A stretch of 64,000 nt of DNA from Daucus carota subsp. sativus (lineage: Eukaryota > Streptophyta > Magnoliopsida > Apiales > Apiaceae): the NCBI RefSeq assembly GCF_001625215.2, contig NC_030384.2:38474390-38538389 (forward strand), given 5' to 3'. Under the pieces are notes generated by a model. That model was given only the letters and a program-made list of their open reading frames with translations. It was not told the origin of the DNA and searched no databases. Numbering within the stretch: position 1 is the first letter of the stretch; each line of letters begins with the position of its first letter. Positions 349-27,436 of this stretch are shown piece after piece. A program made the translations under genes and the position numbers.

Positions 349-873
349 AATTTTAATATATACACAACAAAGGCAAAAAATATGTGTGGAGTTCACGATT
401 CGTATCATTTTATATCTTTAAAGATCAATTTGATTTGTTCCATGCAGCATAACAACAGATACTATATGCGTGAGGGAAAGGATAAAAGCAACAAAAAGGG
501 AAATCTGGGTTCATATGCATATGTACCGATATACTTGTACACAAGTGAAACAAGTATTGATTGAACATATTACTGCAAGTACCTGGATATTCAAGACATT
601 ACAATTCATCTGTATCACTTAGTTCACTGATATATGCATGCAACGGATTTAATAAATGGAGTCTGGTCAAGAAATTGTTTTCAAGTGAAATCAATCACCA
701 TGGCCACTAGTAGTATATCCAATTCATACTAGTATATTTATAGTCCTTGTTTGTAAATATGGATACTGTGTTTTTCTATTATCGCATTAATTTTAATACA
801 TGTACAAACACACATGATTATATATCACAACCACAATATATATATGGACATGAGATCTATGTTTTTGTGATAC

Positions 874-3800
874 CTGCAACTTCCTTATATTTTCACCCAG
901 CTTGTTTTGGGCCATTTTTGCAGCACTTGGTTCCTGTTTTGAAATTTATAACAGACAAGTCTTAGTTATATTTAATTATTATAAGTTCTTAAACATGAAT
1001 ATGGTTCTGTGAGTATAATAGGCGTCCCAAATCTAAACAGAAAGTGTATAAATCCTTAGCAATGTACTTTAATGTGTAGTAGATAATTCTTTTGTATGGA
1101 AACTTACAGCACTCAAAGTGTAACCATATTTTTTCTTAATTTGATCAACTGTACCAGCACCAGTGGCACCAGTTTTCTCTTCTTGTGGCTCTTCCTTGCC
1201 CACAACTTTCTCATTCTTTCCCTTCATTTGTTTTAGTTTACCTGCAACATTACCTGGATAGAGAAAACTCATCACCTTTATATCTTATTTTATATTTTCT
1301 GGGATGATAACTTCATAAATTTTAACTGTGATAAATTCTTTCATAACAATTACGTCAACATTGATGCTACTTCAGTCAATATACTATTGATATTAAAGCT
1401 GAAACAGGGAATAGCAAATTTCATTAACTTAGGTGCCATACATTTTCTAATACTCTTTCCTGTTGGTTACTGAATATACAGAAGCCAAGTAATATTAAAA
1501 AAAATTGTCCAACAACAAACTTATACTAATAGATAGTCATAAATTTTAAAAGAATTCATCATCAAGCATATCATATGAAGATAAGACATGACTTGTGCAC
1601 TAACCTTTCAACAGCTGGAATTTACTAGCCAATTTTTTCTTGTTCAGAGCTGACATCATAGAGTTTCCTTTTGGTTTATGTCCTGGATCTTCAAGGTCAA
1701 TATCATCTAGGATAAGCATAAAAATAAAAAGTAAAAGATGAGTAATTGTTGGTTTGGGGGCAACCATCAGCAACGATTGGAATGCAAATAAAGCTAAACA
1801 TGTTCCTTTTTTCAAATTTGATATCATACTATTCACTGTTTACACGTTTTGATGCCTTTTGGCATCTTCTCAAAATATTTCAAAAACATTCAGTAATTTT
1901 TAATTTTTACAATATTTAACATAATCCAAAAGATTCCATTTTTTCTCTAAAGCAGGCAGAAGTCGTGGGTTTCACGGAAACAACCCCTTTACTCTGAGCA
2001 TCTCCAGTAGGGGTGCCATTAGGGTGCCAACATCTATGTGGAATGGCAATCTTGGGTGCCTCCCTATAGCCAACTCTTGGCATCACCTTAAATTGGTAAA
2101 AATACATTCTTGTATTAAAATTACTAATCATCCATATATATTGTACTATATCTAGTTTTTCATTTAACTATACTTCATTTTTTTTTCTTAAGCACCTTAT
2201 ATGGGGTGCCATCTATTGGAGTTTAAAGGTGCCAAATTCAACATAGATGAAAGAGAATATAAAAAATTACTATTTCTAATGAGATGTCAATGCCCTCGCC
2301 TTTATTGGAGATGCTCTGAGGAACAAGCCTCTGACCCTTTGTTGGGTAAGGTCTGCATACATTTCACCCTTCCAATATCCTACTTACCCTACTTCCAAGT
2401 GAGACACACTACCTACTTTTGGTTAATGTTTTTTGCTAAGGGACATGTCCTACATTAGCATGGATATAAATAAATGATGGGGACAAAAGTTGTTTGTGCC
2501 CTATATTAGAAAATAACTCATAATCTTGGCATTGGAGTTTTCGCAAAAAAGAATGAATTTTTTTCTCTAAGGTTTGATTACAGGGTAAACAAAGTACCTG
2601 CCAGTAGTAGCTGACATTATGGGATACCCGCATTTTCAAATGGTTGCTTTGCTAAATAAATGTCCACATTAAACTAGAGGAAAAAAAAAACTTTTTGGAC
2701 CCTAATGATATTAAGAAGCGGGCAGGGTATTTATGGATTGAAGAGATTGACTTAATTTTCTGTAGCTTAGTGAATGTCCATTGAAAGTGAAAACATAAAA
2801 TTTCAGAATCAAGGAAAAATCCACCAAGAAAAGGCACAAGCTTCAATGGTCTAATACATGTGTTGTAGCCTATCTTCTGCTTTCACAGTCTTGTTTATGT
2901 GAAAAACAATATAATAATTATGCAAGGGAGGGATACCTATATCCAGTAGTTCCACTTCATCAGTATCATCTGTGATCTGATTATTATTGTTCTCCACATC
3001 CAAAGGAAAGTTATCTACTGTAAAGATAGTTGACAGTGCCTCAGCACCTTCAGCGTCTTCAGCTTCCAGTGTAGCGCCATGCGTCTCTTTAACTCCCTTC
3101 ATGTCTTTCAATACAGAACTAAAAATACCCTGGTGCAATCTAAATAAGTCAGCTAGTGCTAAATTAAGATGCGAGGAAAAGTTTGCGACACGAAGTACCT
3201 TTTTCTTTTCTTTATGGCTCGCAGTTTCGGGATCAAGCCTCTCTGCAATTACTAGATCTTTATTGTAAACTTGGCCTATAGAGTCTAAATGCCTGAATAG
3301 GACCACAAAAAAATATATTTCTAAGGAAAGCCTGCAGATTAGCAGCTAAGAAAACAAAATAGAGATGGTACAAGGTTGAATATGTTTCCCTCTCATTGTA
3401 AGTTGCTAAAGAGCAAGGATATGGGCGGGTGTGCCAATAGAATTGCATTTACTAATAGACATTGATACTTAATTTTGTGAAAATAGTTAGTTAACACAAA
3501 ATTTGACTACAAATTTTTGTAAATAACTCTGAGAATAAGGATCGTGGAAGAATCCATGTGTCCAATATGGGGATACAAATAGAAAGTTTGACAACAATTT
3601 TTGTAAGAAAAACTTAAAATTAGGATTGTGGAAGAATTCCCATGTCCGATACTCGGATACACGAGTCCCAGTGTCCAACTCGTGGACATGGCAGGTAACC
3701 AAAGTTCCCCTGATTCCTCGGTAAGTTGCAGAAGGCATCAAGACAATGATGTCCAGTTTTAGTAACATATAATATAAAACAATTAAGGACACAATTAATC

Positions 3801-6800
3801 TTTAATGATGCCAGCATCTTAAATTCATTTCAATAACATGTAAAATAACTAGACCAATGTCTATAATGAATAGTACATGATAAAGAAATTATGATAATAC
3901 TCCATGTTAGCACCAATGACATTATTGCTCATTTAAATCTTGAAATATATCAAAGGATATCAGAAAATGCATTAAATGCTCTGTTCGTTCACCGAATACC
4001 TATAGATTTCCTTCTGGAGTAAAACTGAGATGAGGAAGGCCTCCTGATCGCCGTTTACCTATATAATGAAGATTTACTGATACACATAGACACTCCACAG
4101 CAGAAATATCAAAAATAATAGTAGGAAATATAGATCAATGCATTACCACAATTATCTCTCCACTCTGTGATGAACATATTGAACTATCAGAGCTTGAGTT
4201 GGGTTTCGAAGCGGGAGGAATGAGACCTCTTATAAAAGTTTCCTTTACTAGAGACAATTCTGGCAATGATCTGAATTCCCACGACATAAAATTTTAAAAG
4301 TAAGCTCTACGTACAAAACTTGATGATATAACAAGAGCATTGCATTGGTAAAAGAAAAGTGGAAGAAATCCTGAAGATTGTATAGAAGCATGAAAAGGTC
4401 TACACCTCTACATTTTGTGGTTTAGCTTCTAATATGGTTGTGGATCATATATAGTTGCACACAGTTCTAATATTTTGGAATGATGGTGTTGTATCTTTTT
4501 TGTTAACAAGTTTGATTAATTTCAATGTAAAAGGTATTAAACAATATCTCTGACCTTATCTGAGTTTTTCCGTCAGTAAACATGAGTACAAGGTTAGCAT
4601 TTGGAGTATACATGGTTGATGCCCAGCAACAAGCAGAGGACTGAAACTTCTTTTTATAATAAACCTTTTTAATTCCCTGAACAAATGGATAACATTAGTA
4701 CAGGTTGGATCAGTTTTATAAAACTGCAAGTGGTTTGAAAGGAAATCTCATAAAACCTGAACTAAATGCACCAAAGAATAGATATAAACAGCTTTCTCCG
4801 AACACATAAGCAGACATTGCTTCTGCATGCCATCATCAACATAACTCCCCCTACTAAGATTTTGCCCCTCGTTTCCTGATGTTTCTTGTCCATCTGTGGA
4901 CCAAATTCAGATATCAATCAACTAATATGGGGACATTGCAAGTATCAATATAATTTGGAGTTAAAGACAACAATAAAGTCTGGTTTCAAATGTCTTGTCA
5001 AGCGAGGACAGTCAATAAGGGAACCCAAAACGTAGCATTCTGATACCTAGAATCTGCATAAATAAAGCCCTTGAGGGTTTTTTGGGTCGAATATTTCCTG
5101 AGCTTAGTGCCTTTCCGCTATCACTCTCAAGTGCTAAAATTGATGAATCATTTGTTGCCACTGCTAAAATATTTTTCTCAAAGCCATGTAAACTGCAGGT
5201 TGCAAATTGAAGAGATATGACATCCGTGGATAGTTCGCTGGCTATATGTTTTTCATAGAGTAGACTAGGACCTTCCAAATCAATCACTGACACCTGTAAA
5301 CAAAAAGTTGGCAAAGATATAAACTAAACTGCAGGTTGTTTATGCATAATATGGCCGTAATTTTGACTTCTCCAATTGGTACCATTTTCCCATAGTATTG
5401 GCTTCTCGAGATGGTACCAGTGGTATCACTGAGAATCCTCAAATTGCATATTAATATTAGGGAAAGAATAGTGAAAAAAAGGCGGTTAGAGAAAAGAAAG
5501 TGAAGATGAATATACTGAATTGCTTCTTGATTCAAGCAAGTCTTTATCTTCACTTTAAAATATTAGATTATAGTTAAGTATCTTATTTTGACAGATTATA
5601 AGAATATAAGACTAACAAAGTCAAAAGTTTAGGCGCGTCATAAGTCAAAAATACGAGATGGTACCACCAAGAAAAGTCAATACCACAATAGTACCATTGA
5701 GAATATCCTTTTTCAAATATAAAGTTTTCTAGTAGACTCTTAGTCAACTAATTATATAATTGCAACGCCTCTATCTCCTCTCCTTTATTAGACTGAATAG
5801 ATGAAGAAACAGAAGTGCTAAGGAACTTGAAAAACAAGCAAATAGTGTTTTGAAGAGAAACTTTTGGTGTTGTCTTTTAGAAGAAAGAAGCAAAAATATC
5901 ATTAGTTGTTTGATCTTTTATCATAAACCAGTTAATCTTCCCTTCTAAACTTTCAGTTCAAAAGTCTTTTATCTTGGCCAACTATATCAACCAATCAGTA
6001 TTTATTATATAACTGAAGCCAGCAATTTATCCTCTCTCAGTATATACTTAATGAAATAATAATTTCAAATCTAAATTTGTTGTGATAAAAGAGATTCAAA
6101 CATCAAATCTCCCAGATGGATACATCAAGAAGTGAGACAAAGTAACAGAAAATTATCTCACATATCCTTTGGCAGAGCCGACAGCAACCTGCTTTAAGTC
6201 TTGGCTCATGTTGAAAGAAAGCACACCCCCATTGACTTTCAATAGTTGAACACTGCGCATGATGTGATTGTTTCCTTTCCTTGAACTTCCTGGAAATAAT
6301 GAAAGTCCATGCTCAACGTAAGTTATTTGACAACATTAAGCTCAACTTCGCTGCAAATTTATATCAAACAAGACTAGGCGCCTGTTTGGCAAATTTTACT
6401 TATCAAATTTAAGGGCTTTTTTTTATAAAAAAAATTACACATATTTTTATAATATTTTGGGATATAAATGTTAAACTTATTCAAATTTTAATATTTTTAA
6501 TACACTTTCTAATAATAGATTCCATAGCCATTCACCAAATCATGGACAGAATAGAACACATAAATTCAGATTACAGAAGCCTATAACACTGAACACACCA
6601 AAGCAGACCAGATTAATATAGACATGAAATGGTCTGGACTAATAACCAAATACTAAAGGTTATACTATATAACTGGCGTGGCATTATGGAAAGCAAGTAC
6701 CTTGTAAGGACATGAAGCTGCTCTCTGCCAAGAAAGGCTCGGGCTTGAATTTGAATATCCGTACCTGCATGACAAAAGAAAAAAAGGTATAGAAGTCTCC

Positions 6801-14270: not shown

Positions 14271-14616
14271 CTTTTAAGTCAATATAATATACTCCTTAAA
14301 TACATAATAACCTACACTGAAACAATATTTGTATTAATTAATAATTAAAAAGTTAAAGTCTTGTCTAGTTTATAGTCGTTTCCAACAGACTAATACTTAT
14401 AATTTCATAATTTTTGAATTTTGATAACTATAATACTAAAATTGAATGTTACTCTTTCCATCTCAGTTAAATAACCATTGGATCATCCAACCGTGCTCAC
14501 ATCCTGTTATCAGGGGCGGTCCTAGCCCAGTGCAGCCAGTGCTCCCGCACAGGGTCCACCGGAGCCCAAAATATATTTTACAGTAAGATGCCCATGCAGA
14601 GTTCTATACATATATT

Positions 14617-14847
14617 TTAGTTTTTATCATACGTTTCAGGTTGATAAATTATACGTCCTCTGGTTGAATCATAACGACTTATTTCAATTTTTACTCTATC
14701 GCCTGGTAGTATCCGTATAAAGCTACTTCGGATCTTTCCTGAAACATAACCTAGAATCATATCTTGATTATCTAAGCGAATACGGAACATACCGTTGGGA
14801 AAGGATTCAGTAATTAAACCTTCATGAATCCATTTTTGTTCTTTCAT
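14617..14847 (-). pseudogene. infA: Plastid-derived infA copy (translation initiation factor 1) in a nuclear transposon
   Basis: A 76-codon open frame starts [15 protein letters not shown] and contains [20 protein letters not shown], the S1/OB-fold protein IF-1 encoded in chloroplast DNA (usually 77 codons). The first 67 or so residues are collinear with plastid infA; the last few (after RGRIIY) do not look like the normal end, which places the left breakpoint near 14635. The frame is undamaged, so the transfer may be young. Without a transit peptide or promoter it is not expected to work in the nucleus. It keeps its plastid neighbour order with rps8 upstream on the same strand. Confidence 0.85.
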
Positions 14848-14968
14848 TACAGGTAAAGCCTCCTTGAAGTATCAATTGATGGAGGAGGAACGATATTAGA
14901 CAACCCGCCTCTTTTCTTTTTGTTTTCACAAATAAGAAGTTTCGGACCCAATTCGTATATTAGAAAGA

Positions 14969-15097
14969 TTACCATATATAACACAAAACTTCTCCGTCAA
15001 TTCGTTCTAGTCGAGCTTCTCGGTATGTCATTAAACCTCGGGAAGTAGAAATAATTACAATTCCCATCCCACCTAAAATTCTAGGAATTCGTTGGTA
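14969..15097 (-). pseudogene. rps8: Plastid-derived 3' fragment of rps8 (ribosomal protein S8)
   Basis: The last 42 codons of rps8 plus stop, reading from [14 protein letters not shown] to GEVLCYIW. The fragment is cut at its 5' side at about 15097. The infA-rps8 spacer between 14848 and 14968 is also plastid-like, so the whole stretch came in as one piece. S8 is a small-subunit ribosomal protein; this piece cannot make a working one. Confidence 0.85.
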
Positions 15098-15685
15098 GTG
15101 AGCAGCCAACCCCACTTAACTTAAAATTATTTTATATTTTTTATTCATTCTAAGTAGTCTGGACGTTAAATTTAATTAAAACTTACATGCTACTTTTTAT
15201 AATTGTTAATTTTATAGAGAATAATTTTCATTTTCTTATCAATAATGCGCTCCTTTAACACACTAAAAAAATTAAAATTTAATTATTATAAAATAATGTT
15301 AAGGTTTGTCATTGTATTATTTGAATACAATTTTTTTTAAAATTTCTCATTCTATTTCTCAAGTCTTTCATTTCTCTAAATTAAGAACTATATGAAATTT
15401 ATTTTTTTTAAATCCAAACTTTAGCATTATCATTTAACATGATGTTTCATTTTTTTGAGCTTCATAATAAATTTGTTAATTCAAATTTATTTGATATAAA
15501 TTATATATTAATTTGAGTTTAAATATGAATAATATTTTTAAATAAGTTAAAATATAAATAATATATTTTATAAAAGGGCTAAAAAAAATTTCGCACGGAG
15601 CCCCATAATTCTCAGGACCGGCCCTGGCTGTTATATTTTAAGAAAGAGAGATTGCATCATGACCACAATGGCACAATCACTTTTT

Positions 15686-16542
15686 GAGTGGATCCTCTGT
15701 CCCCTCTTTGCGTCTCCCTATGTCCCTTTTTTTTTATTGGTCAGTTCTTTACCTATCACGTGATTTATAGTTGTTATTTATTCTTTTTGGATAGTTTCTC
15801 ATCAGAGATTATTAAACTTTTTCAGATCTATGAAAATATATCTTAATTAATTAAATATCTTTTTCATATAGTACATAATCAACTAAAAGTATTTTTTACA
15901 TGATATATAATATTATATAGTAACTTTATTTTTATGTTTTCTACATGAAATAATTAATTAAAATTTTGAAAAGTTTAATATTTTTAAATTTAAAAGTAAA
16001 AAATTCTTTATTTATGTATATAATAATTAGTTAAATATCTTTTTCATATAGTACATAACAACTAAAAATATTTTTTATATGATATAAATATAATATTATA
16101 TAGTAATTTTATATGCTTTGTAAAACATGTAAGCATCTTCTTCTGTTTCAAACTCAAGCCCAACTTTCGGTACCATACTTTCATTGATTTCATTAGTCTT
16201 TGTTGGAGTAATAGGTATTCCAATATCTTTCAAAGAATAATCATCAAAATTTAAGTGGCGTGATACTTGAGAAACAGTAGTCATACCTGGAGTATTAGGG
16301 TTCTTGATGGTTCCGATTTAGGTAATTGAATCGAGTGAAAACCTCTTGATATACCAGAGTTTGAGATATACACACATTCTGTAAGTAATTTATTTGTATT
16401 CTGCAACAATATTTTAAATATAACTTAATTAAAACTAATAAAATTTTGAAGGAGAGAGATCACGTGAGAAGTAAAAAAACTGACCAATGAGAAAGAGGGG
16501 ACATAGAAAGAGACACAAAGAGGGGACAGAAGATCTGAACTC
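15686..16542. mobile_element. Mutator-like (MULE) non-autonomous element
   Basis: Long terminal inverted repeats of about 80 bp: the left begins GAGTGGATCCTCTGTCCCC, and the right, inverted, begins GAGTTCAGATCTTCTGTCCC; both continue through CTCTTTG.GTCTC, ATTGGTCAGTT and TCACGTGAT. A perfect 9-bp direct duplication TCACTTTTT flanks it (15677-15685 and 16543-16551), as in Mutator elements. The 857-bp body holds only a short FAR1-like frame, so it is not autonomous. Confidence 0.85.
16096..16284 (-). pseudogene. FAR1/FHY3-family N-terminal fragment inside a MULE
   Basis: A 62-codon frame ending PKVGLEFETEEDAYMFYKAY matches the start of the FAR1-type WRKY-GCM1 DNA-binding domain, found in MULE transposases and in the light-signalling factors FAR1/FHY3 derived from them. 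The zinc-binding Cys and His residues that should follow are absent, since the frame stops a few codons later. It may be the relic of the element's own transposase or a captured host gene exon; the sequence does not decide. Confidence 0.65.
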
Positions 16543-24764: not shown

Positions 24765-27436
24765 ATGGATTGGGAAAACAATCCAGAAGAAGGAAAAGAT
24801 GCACACACCAGTAACACTATCACCACTATCAATAACAATATCAACACCAATAGTAACAATGGAGGAGCAGGGATGTTTGTCAAGGTCATGACTGATGAAC
24901 AGATGGAGGTTCTCCGCAAACAAATAGCTGTTTACGCTACTATTTGTCAACAGCTTGTTGATTTGCACAAGTCGCTCACCAATCAACACGATCTTGCTGG
25001 TACGTGTGTTAACTTTTTGTGTTCATATCATTTTTCGCTTGTTTATGTTTTGTGCTAGAACTGCTAGTGTTTACTAAATCACTGTTTCTCTGCTATTTAA
25101 TAGTGATGATAATTGTTATGTTATTTTATTATTAAATGTTGTCTGCACCTTTGTTATTGGATGACACTTTTGTTTGTGCCTTTTTTTTTAGTTATATTGA
25201 TTTTAATGTGATTACTTGATCATTTAAGGGTTTGTGATTTGGAAGCTTTAATCTAGAGTTTGGGAGGTTATATGGAGATTAGTATCTTAATATACTTTAA
25301 TTTTGTCTGGTGAGTTTTTGGAATGTCATTAAAGTTATAATCCACCGAAAAAGCCATTCTCCATAGTCCATTTGATCTGCCATTCCACGAGGTTCGGTCT
25401 GTAGGTTGGTGTCGGATAAGACACTTTCTGCATTTTTTGTGCGGATCCGTCATTTGGATGATCTTCATTTGTCGATCATCTAATCTTTGACATATAACAA
25501 TTTGTCTCAACTGAACAATGATAATACAGAAACAAACGTATTAACCTTAAAGTTTAGTAAACATATCTCTTCAATGTATTTGGATTATAATATCAGCCTG
25601 CTAACATGCTTATACTCTTCACTGTTAGTGATAGGTAGTTATTGCAATCGCTAATCACCAGTATTGATCGAACACTGGCAGTGAATGTGCTAGTCTTTTC
25701 TTGAATTTTTGTCTATGTTATAAGATTCTTGCTCTTGTTTTCCAGGAGTCAGAATGGGAAATCCGTACTGTGACCCGTCTATGGGCCACAAAATTACTGG
25801 CAGACAAAGGTGGACTCCGACGCCCGTGCAACTTCAAATACTTGAACGTATGTTTGAGCAAGGAAATGGAACTCCAAGCAAGCAGAAGATCAAGGAGATC
25901 ACCTCTGAATTGTCTCAGCATGGCCAGATTTCTGAAACCAATGTTTATAATTGGTTCCAAAATAGACGTGCTCGTTCAAAAAGAAAGCAACAGGTTTCTG
26001 CACCAAACAATGCTGAATCGGAAGTGGAGACAGAGGTTGACTCACCTAATCATAACAAAACAAAGTCTGAGGATTTTCAGTCGCAGCACGAGTCAGCTCC
26101 AAGGTCTGAAGAGCTCTGCTTTCAAAATCCTGAGATAAGTTCTGGCATGCATAGCTTAGATCCAGGGTCACATAAAGTGGAGCCTCCATATCCAAGTGGC
26201 TCCAGTTCAACGCCAGCTGCAAGTATGGGCCAAATGTCCTTTTATGGAAGCATGTTATCAAATCCAAGTACGTATATTCACAACATCTGATATATAGTTT
26301 CATTTGACATTTCATTGTTTTAGTCTATTGAAGATAGTTAAATTTGGAGCTCTTTTGCTTGTTTCCCTGTTCATGCCAAATGATAATTGGTTTATTAATT
26401 TTGTAATGATAGCTTCGTTGATGTGGAAGTTGTTTGCAGACTGTTTTATTTATTTTCCCTCACTCTTTATATAAACCGTGTAACCTAATTTTACCAAGTC
26501 TTAGTCCCCATGATTGATGCAAAACCTTCCTGAATCGAATGTTCAATTGATCATTTCAATTATTGTCTGGCCTTGCGATTAGTTTCGTTCTTTCCCTTTT
26601 TTCTGCTCTGTACTTGCATTAGAGCTGCTTTTTGTCCAAATATCGTGTCGAGTATCTTACATATTATCTATTGGCTACTTACATAAGCAAATACTTGGGG
26701 AAATCTAATTTCCTCTTTAGGTTGATTTCGTGATCCTTTAGATATAGTTGATTGGCTCCAAGTATGGGATCCTGTGAGATATATATTACCTCCTGTGTCT
26801 GTATAAGATATATGGATGACTTATGAGACTTTAGATATCTTCTGGAATTGTTACTTGTGAGGTAAGCTGAAAAACAAAGAAAGGGAAGAAAAAATACAAA
26901 GGAGAATGGTTTTAGTTCTGTGCATTATCCATCTTTGAAATTTTGGGTGGCAGCGGCAATGCTTGCATCTTTTGTTTGTTTTTCTGTCGCACCACACATT
27001 TCACTTAATAAAATCACATGTATACTGAGCTCAATGAATTACCCATTTATTACATGATCCCAGCCTATATTTTCAAGCATTTTCACTACAGATTATGTAC
27101 GGTGCCCCAAGTCCAGATAATGAGAAATACTAAAAATTGAGTACATGCTCAAGTCATATCCTGGTAAATACAGAACTGAGAAAGAATGAGAGAGGCGCAA
27201 GGGAGCAGAGCTTTCATGTGCATTAATTTATAATAAGTTGCCCCCCCCCCCCCCCCCCCCCCAAATCTTTCCTTGTTGATTTTCATTCTAGTTTGACTTG
27301 ATAATGAAGTCGTAGTTGCTTTTGTTGTCTGATATATTAATACCTTGCAGGAATGGAACACTTGATTGGAAAAATGGAGAATCCTGGAAACTACAATACA
27401 TTTTTGCATCCAGATGACTATAATATGACAGGTTGA
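24765..27436 (+). CDS. WOX13: WUSCHEL-related homeobox 13-like transcription factor
   Basis: Exons 24765-24999, 25746-26267 and 27351-27436 give 280 residues. The N-terminal block [20 protein letters not shown] (37-56), typical of the ancient WOX13 clade, precedes the homeodomain at about 97-161: [18 protein letters not shown], a long loop, then [18 protein letters not shown] as the DNA-recognition helix. An acidic [11 protein letters not shown] box, a PEELCF-like block ([11 protein letters not shown]) and a short terminal exon (MEHLIGKME) follow as in other WOX13 proteins. The protein is a nuclear DNA-binding factor; clade members act in root, fruit and cell-reprogramming processes. It lacks the WUS box of the modern clade as far as I can see. 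The second intron carries a run of 22 C. Confidence 0.95.
27241..27262. repeat. Homopolymer (C)22
   Basis: Twenty-two C in a row, in the second intron of WOX13, 88 bp before its last exon. The exact length is doubtful, since such runs are poorly read and unstable. Confidence 0.9.

Follow-up and report, generated by a model that had tools for sequence, protein, structure and literature searches.

A plastid rps8-infA segment within a non-autonomous hAT-type element of the carrot nuclear genome

Background

Nuclear insertions of plastid DNA (NUPTs) are described as products of end joining, with 1-7 bp of micro-identity or blunt joins at their edges, and in some species they are reported to co-localise with transposable elements (PMC7037861). 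According to a second account, the distance of NUPTs from DNA transposons is greater than expected in 22 species and smaller in three (PMC12572781), so that landing in such a transposon would not be their commonest outcome. Foreign DNA has also been described within hAT elements: the Pack-TYPE elements treated in PMC8903248 include hAT types that carry it, and the Hatvine-6 hAT elements of grapevine carry transduplicated sequences (PMC2528002). Plastid DNA inside an hAT element was not found in the titles and abstract openings of the literature searched, a body of text with subscription papers mostly outside it, and this is weak evidence of absence.

Here we analyse a locus in Daucus carota subsp. 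sativus at which the two kinds of sequence meet. It lies in a stretch of 64,000 nucleotides (the window; C4:38474390-38538389), and the comparisons were made within a single assembly of 441 Mb and 11 contigs. The explanation that we favour, with a probability of roughly 0.8, is that a NUPT became nested by chance insertion in an old resident hAT copy, the combined unit giving no sign of movement. The case combines two known things, an hAT element and a NUPT, and is ordinary in kind and unusually clear. It offers a clean example, open to dating, of a transposon that received plastid DNA, in which relatives in the same genome without the insert show both loss and gain. Its interest would rise only if the loaded element proved mobile; cut-and-paste transposons would then give organelle DNA a way to spread in the nucleus.

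Results

The element and its relatives

The two ends of the element are short terminal inverted repeats (TIRs) that start with CAGGG and show 92% complementarity (14511-14523 / 15614-15626); ends of this form are typical of plant hAT elements. With up to two mismatches allowed, the TIR motif was matched six times in the window against 0.53 expected, a number reached in none of 100 shuffles. Three of these matches are the element's own ends (two of them overlapping, on opposite strands) and three belong to a small repeat at 19-348. An extended left end, at up to three mismatches, had eight matches in the genome, and its reversed control had none. The 8-bp flanking repeat announced by the original prediction is present as a target-site duplication (TSD), but it is imperfect, with seven of eight positions identical (Table 1).

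Searches of the plant's own genome, whose counts are lower bounds, used the whole 1116 bp as query (at least 40 matches, with 32 of 32 first-look candidates scored) and the plain C9 copy (at least 20 matches, 17 of 17 candidates scored). They found seven well-matching copies besides that of the window, eight in all. Since these sister copies exist, a chance pairing of the ends is ruled out; the matching termini and the hAT-like transposon that had been proposed are upheld by the TIRs, the duplication and the seven further copies. Weak or short matches at C1:4.05, C3:41.31, C1:31.39, C5:33.27, C7:29.84, C7:6.96, C2:46.24, C4:24.75 and C3:63.91 Mb were omitted from the count of eight; a match limited to one end, at C4:21.21 Mb, was likewise omitted. 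This last is a left-end match with two mismatches (C4:21211409-21211435, minus strand), absent from the similarity-search listings, and it is perhaps part of a more distant or longer relative.

The 8-bp TSD was scored in seven of the eight copies, L016/L015 being left out because its left end is lost. All eight positions agree in four copies, seven in two (the window and L009) and two in one. Copy number and TSD pattern together make this a low-copy, non-autonomous hAT-type family, of about 600-690 bp without inserts. Dimer_Tnp_hAT domains have at least 150 matches in the genome (150 of 525 candidates scored), none of them tied to these ends.

Several relatives carry DNA of other kinds. L014 has a 3.7-kb insert (~747-4458) that begins in poly-T and has a 16-bp duplication; it is probably LINE-like and reversed. 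The L016/L015 copy contains two inserts: L015 has one of about 310 bp with CTCCCTCCGTCCC ends, which we take to be a Stowaway-like miniature element, and the copy as a whole is interrupted over about 28 kb, its pieces overlapping by 5 bp. Counting the window, three of the four copies of its subgroup bear unrelated inserts, which fits passive landing: insertion into resident copies is not special to plastid DNA.

Other features of the window were recorded in passing. The small repeat at 19-348 (~330 bp) has hAT-like ends (CAGGGTTGGCCCT / CAGAGCCGGCCCT), and its flanking 8-mers are poorly matched by eye. Adjoining the right side of the hAT copy is an inverted-repeat element (~15691-16535) whose arms, at 15691-15764 and 16459-16535, are 83% alike and inverted; copies of its arm are scattered through the genome, and several of them form inverted pairs at a spacing of about 0.8-1.3 kb. 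A fragment of a homeodomain protein, recognised by its homeodomain match and presumably of the WOX type, lies at 25724-26290. Scanning the window for Rfam families and for tRNAs gave no match in either case, and BLAST of the element against phages gave none.

Table 1. Features of the locus and related copies in the genome (window positions unless a contig is named)
Feature	Position	Strand	Basis or remark
hAT-type element, non-autonomous, 1116 bp (element proper ~656 bp)	14511..15626	.	TIRs; 7 other genome copies; 8/8 TSDs in four other copies
Left target-site duplication CCTGTTAT	14503..14510	.	7/8 identical to right copy
Right target-site duplication GCTGTTAT	15627..15634	.	7/8 identical to left copy
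Left terminal inverted repeat CAGGGGCGGTCCT	14511..14523	+	TIR complementarity, motif count
Right terminal inverted repeat CAGGGCCGGTCCT (minus-strand reading)	15614..15626	-	TIR complementarity, motif count
Element proper, left part	14511..14639	+	aligned with 7 other copies; 85% to C9 copy
Plastid DNA, single unbroken 460 bp, in place of ~5 bp of element	14640..15099	-	9/460 differences, gapless, against three identical C1 copies
infA, first 69 of 77 codons; ORF continues to 14617 through 7 transposon codons	14641..14847	-	ORF list, Pfam, plastid-like copy
Plastid rps8-infA spacer	14848..14968	-	one substitution, at 14910
rps8, last 42 codons and stop	14969..15097	-	Pfam, structural match
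Element proper, right part, A+T-rich, no transposase	15100..15626	+	91% to C9 copy; without long ORF
Sister copy L009	C9:31.13 Mb		TSD 7/8
Sister copy L014	C2:27.78 Mb		TSD 8/8
Sister copy L016 + L015, in pieces	C2:18.55-18.58 Mb		left end lost
Sister copy L010	C7:0.79 Mb		TSD 8/8
Sister copy L011	C3:1.78 Mb		TSD 8/8
Sister copy L012	C4:24.20 Mb		TSD 8/8
Sister copy L013	C1:56.09 Mb		TSD 2/8; right end unlike the family's
Plastid-like rps8-infA copies	C1:210 kb, C1:220 kb, C1:429 kb, contig C11 (127,500 bp)		own-genome search

The plastid segment

The claim that about 460 bp of chloroplast infA-rps8 DNA lies between the element ends is borne out by three lines of evidence: Pfam (eIF-1a, 2.9e-19, in the infA frame; Ribosomal_S8, 1e-14, in the rps8 frame), the structural comparison of the S8 part, whose top match is a chloroplast ribosomal S8 (2.3e-19), and base-level alignment. 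For the infA part the top structural matches were bacterial IF-1 chains (2e-21), and chloroplast IF-1 was not among the 12 matches listed. A plastid infA codon pattern had no match in a collection of genome contigs and none in one of viral contigs, and BLAST of the plastid part against plasmids found no match.

Plastid-like rps8-infA copies occur in the same assembly near the start of C1 (L018, C1:206020-214479; L019, C1:216020-224479; L017, C1:424839-433298). Two of these three lie in opposite orientations at a distance of about 10 kb; parts of the loci read N, and the three represent either a large recent NUPT cluster or misassembled plastid sequence. They are mutually identical across the 460 bp, and the copy on C11 is identical to them across its 359 readable bp. 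Open reading frames in L017 comprise full-length infA (77 codons), rps8 and further frames beyond it; those in L020, on C11, are the same except for infA, which falls in a stretch reading N. We take the frames after rps8 in both loci to be rpl14 and rpl16. From the identity of the C1 and C11 copies and the full-length neighbouring genes of L017 and L020, the two loci whose reading frames were listed, we infer that they represent the plant's plastid genome.

Aligned with these copies, the window at 14640-15099 has nine differences in 460 bp and no gap, and holds rps8, spacer and infA in plastid gene order within nuclear DNA, as a NUPT does. The alignment that had been recommended for dating the segment gave a divergence with plastid-like copies of the same assembly as its reference. 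Loose plastid fragments are present elsewhere in the genome, on C5, C1, C6 and C4.

The original prediction had also described an open infA copy of 76 codons and the last 42 codons of rps8. The rps8 codons are there, followed by their stop, and the infA frame is indeed open for 76 codons; however, 69 of these are plastid and seven belong to the transposon, whereas the plastid-like infA has 77, and its last eight are missing here. Eight of the nine differences are coding, seven nonsynonymous (L>F, R>S, V>I and R>Q in infA; I>L, D>Y and G>D in rps8) and one synonymous. Random changes in the segment would be expected to be 77% nonsynonymous, so that seven of eight over infA and rps8 matches neutrality; the insert appears to decay as neutrality predicts, with eight changes too few to speak against weak constraint.

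The gene infA could be in the course of a functional move to the nucleus, as might be read from a start codon that opens a frame of this length; we regard this as scarcely credible. The frame has lost its plastid end, it carries four amino-acid changes in the remaining 69 codons (three if the left join is at 14643, when R>Q drops out), the nonsynonymous share is close to the random expectation, the ATG abuts the plastid spacer directly, and a 77-codon infA is present in the plastid-like copy L017. An intact coding sequence under purifying selection was therefore not what we found, the infA being incomplete and the coding changes nearly all nonsynonymous. Selection on infA, which had been put forward as the less likely reason for the unbroken frame, is rejected on the incomplete frame and the neutral-looking changes, and the open frame is probably best put down to chance and youth.

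The joins

The joins, predicted near 14635 and 15097, lie instead at 14640 (ambiguous over 14640-14643) and 15099/15100. Six sister copies (L009, L010, L011, L013, L014 and L016/L015) read through the site without plastid DNA, and L012 is deleted there. Between CAGG and GAGCAGCC, L009 and L014 have CTTGC and the window copy has the plastid DNA; L016 has CATG-CTTGT-GAGCAGCC at the same site, and L010, L011 and L013 have related sequence across it. Relative to its sisters, the window copy has exchanged about 5 bp for 459-460 bp. The left join shares one base (G at 14640) and the right join 0-2, the number varying with which base, C or T, stood in the broken copy. An alternative placement of the left join is after an element TTG, following loss of C, with plastid DNA from 14643 or 14644, and the differences are then eight, not nine. 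Judged against L009, L014 and L016, the site bears an end-joining scar, a deletion of about 5 bp with 0-2 bp of micro-identity. The ends, the duplication, the sister copies and the replacement by plastid DNA are matters of direct observation.

Plant libraries are rich in plastid reads, and on account of this abundance plastid reads might have been misjoined into a nuclear hAT copy during assembly. Such reads would be near-identical to plastid DNA, so that nine differences in 460 from the plastid-like copies, seven of the eight coding ones nonsynonymous, count against an artefact; the clean replacement of the empty-site sequence with a small loss counts against it too, and we consider it very improbable.

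Order of events and age

In the eight-copy alignment the window element has 29 private substitutions at the 608 sites that are uniform among its three closest relatives; the same count in those relatives gives 16, 11 and 10. Polarised by four more distant copies, the window's figure is 22 of 543. Its maximum-likelihood branch is 0.0396, and its private changes amount to 4.0-4.8%. Divergence of the insert is 0.0196 (9/460; 95% interval 0.009-0.037). Fisher tests of element against insert gave p = 0.018 on raw counts, a value inflated by changes on the sister-group stem, and p = 0.067 on polarised ones; a binomial split gave 0.071. Since the private divergence of the element exceeds that of the insert, the element lineage probably predates the insert. 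The comparison leans towards plastid DNA that landed after the element's last jump rather than being captured before it; it does no more than lean, and is no proof of a post-jump landing, because the copy's private changes may predate that jump. The ordering statistics that underlie our preferred explanation are, at a polarised p of 0.067, modest.

Nuclear substitution rates range from 6e-9 to 1.5e-8 per site and year. At these rates the divergence of the insert places the insertion at about 1.3-3.3 million years, with wider limits of 0.6-6.1, and the predicted recent arrival is confirmed as a fairly recent one.

Search for a second chimera

It had been suggested that the plastid-loaded element could be copied round the genome, and that a search for further copies with this plastid segment enclosed by these ends would reveal this. 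We ran that search, and none was found. Queries over each join matched across it only the locus itself (one of 9 and one of 12 matches; 8/8 and 12/12 first-look candidates scored). Nor did the whole-element query of the plant's own genome find a second chimera, the other plastid matches (C1, C5, C6, C11, several on C4 and a few short ones) covering the plastid part only. Plastid DNA is present in one of the eight element copies found, that of the window. These searches are blind to the stretches of N in the C1 and C11 plastid-like loci, so that a chimera inside them would be missed. When the flanks were joined and searched (40 of 86 candidates scored), none of the 41 matches was a paralogous empty site: two are the window's own flanks, and 39 (one in the window) cover the right flank only, at query positions of 193 or above, a portion that belongs to another repeat. 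Amplification of the chimera is rejected as far as these searches reach, and nothing shows that the combined transposon-plastid unit has moved.

This locus shows one mark of a Pack-hAT, a non-autonomous element whose TIRs enclose foreign DNA; for the other, a loaded element that has transposed, own-genome searches found no second copy. The plastid fragment could have been taken in elsewhere, during excision or gap repair, the 1.1-kb chimera then jumping to its present site. Good TIRs and a 7/8 duplication do bound the plastid DNA, the genome is rich in hAT transposase domains, as counted above, and hAT elements with captured gene fragments are on record (PMC8903248, PMC2528002). Nevertheless we hold this capture to be unlikely, as neither a second nor a donor chimera was found in the own-genome searches, the private branch of the element looks older than its insert, and the main text of PMC8903248, in which plastid, chloroplast, organell- and mitochondri- have no mention, offers no precedent for plastid cargo. 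That an hAT element took in plastid DNA and jumped here as a unit, so that cut-and-paste transposition moved chloroplast DNA, we judge quite unlikely.

Discussion

Several observations counted for a NUPT that landed in a resident element. The site is uninterrupted in sister copies that have no plastid DNA; the plastid piece is continuous and gapless against the plastid-like copies; only one of eight copies has plastid DNA, and only the locus itself spans the joins; the private divergence of the element is greater than that of its insert; and unrelated DNA is found in sister copies too, with loose plastid fragments elsewhere in the genome. Against this explanation it counts that the TIRs and the duplication are still recognisable, as a chimera that had moved once would look alike.

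The preferred explanation implies a simple course of events. An hAT transposase acting in trans would have brought a non-autonomous hAT element of about 660 bp to this site, and the insertion would have produced the 8-bp duplication. Later, a double-strand break would have opened the element some 130 bp in from the left, and end joining would have taken in a 460-bp linear plastid fragment with the loss of about 5 bp of the element. The structure is seen directly, whereas the mechanism and the order are deduced from it. The insert would then have decayed neutrally, to nine substitutions in 460.

Proliferation of an rps15 NUPT has reportedly taken place in papaya. As told in PMC7037861, that NUPT lies near Ty3-type retrotransposons and so resembles the present one in its closeness to a mobile element; it proliferated 23 times, whereas here no second chimera was found. 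Spatial association between NUPTs and transposons has been reported more generally, positive or negative by class and species (PMC12572781, PMC7037861). Hatvine-6, as presented in PMC2528002, is like the window element an hAT element with a variable foreign interior, but it has a common transposase coding sequence and its cargo is genic or non-genic grapevine DNA, whereas the window element is without transposase and its cargo is plastid. The Pack-hAT elements outlined in PMC8903248 share with our locus hAT ends and a duplication around foreign coding DNA, with transposase absent; they differ in that the cargo here is plastid and not nuclear genic, and that one copy was found, without evidence of movement of the loaded element. 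NUPTs formed by end joining, as characterised in PMC7037861, are a further parallel, which the present segment resembles in being a single plastid piece with a small target deletion, 0-2 bp of micro-identity and neutral decay. Unlike them, it lies inside a small TIR transposon that is in principle able to carry plastid DNA.
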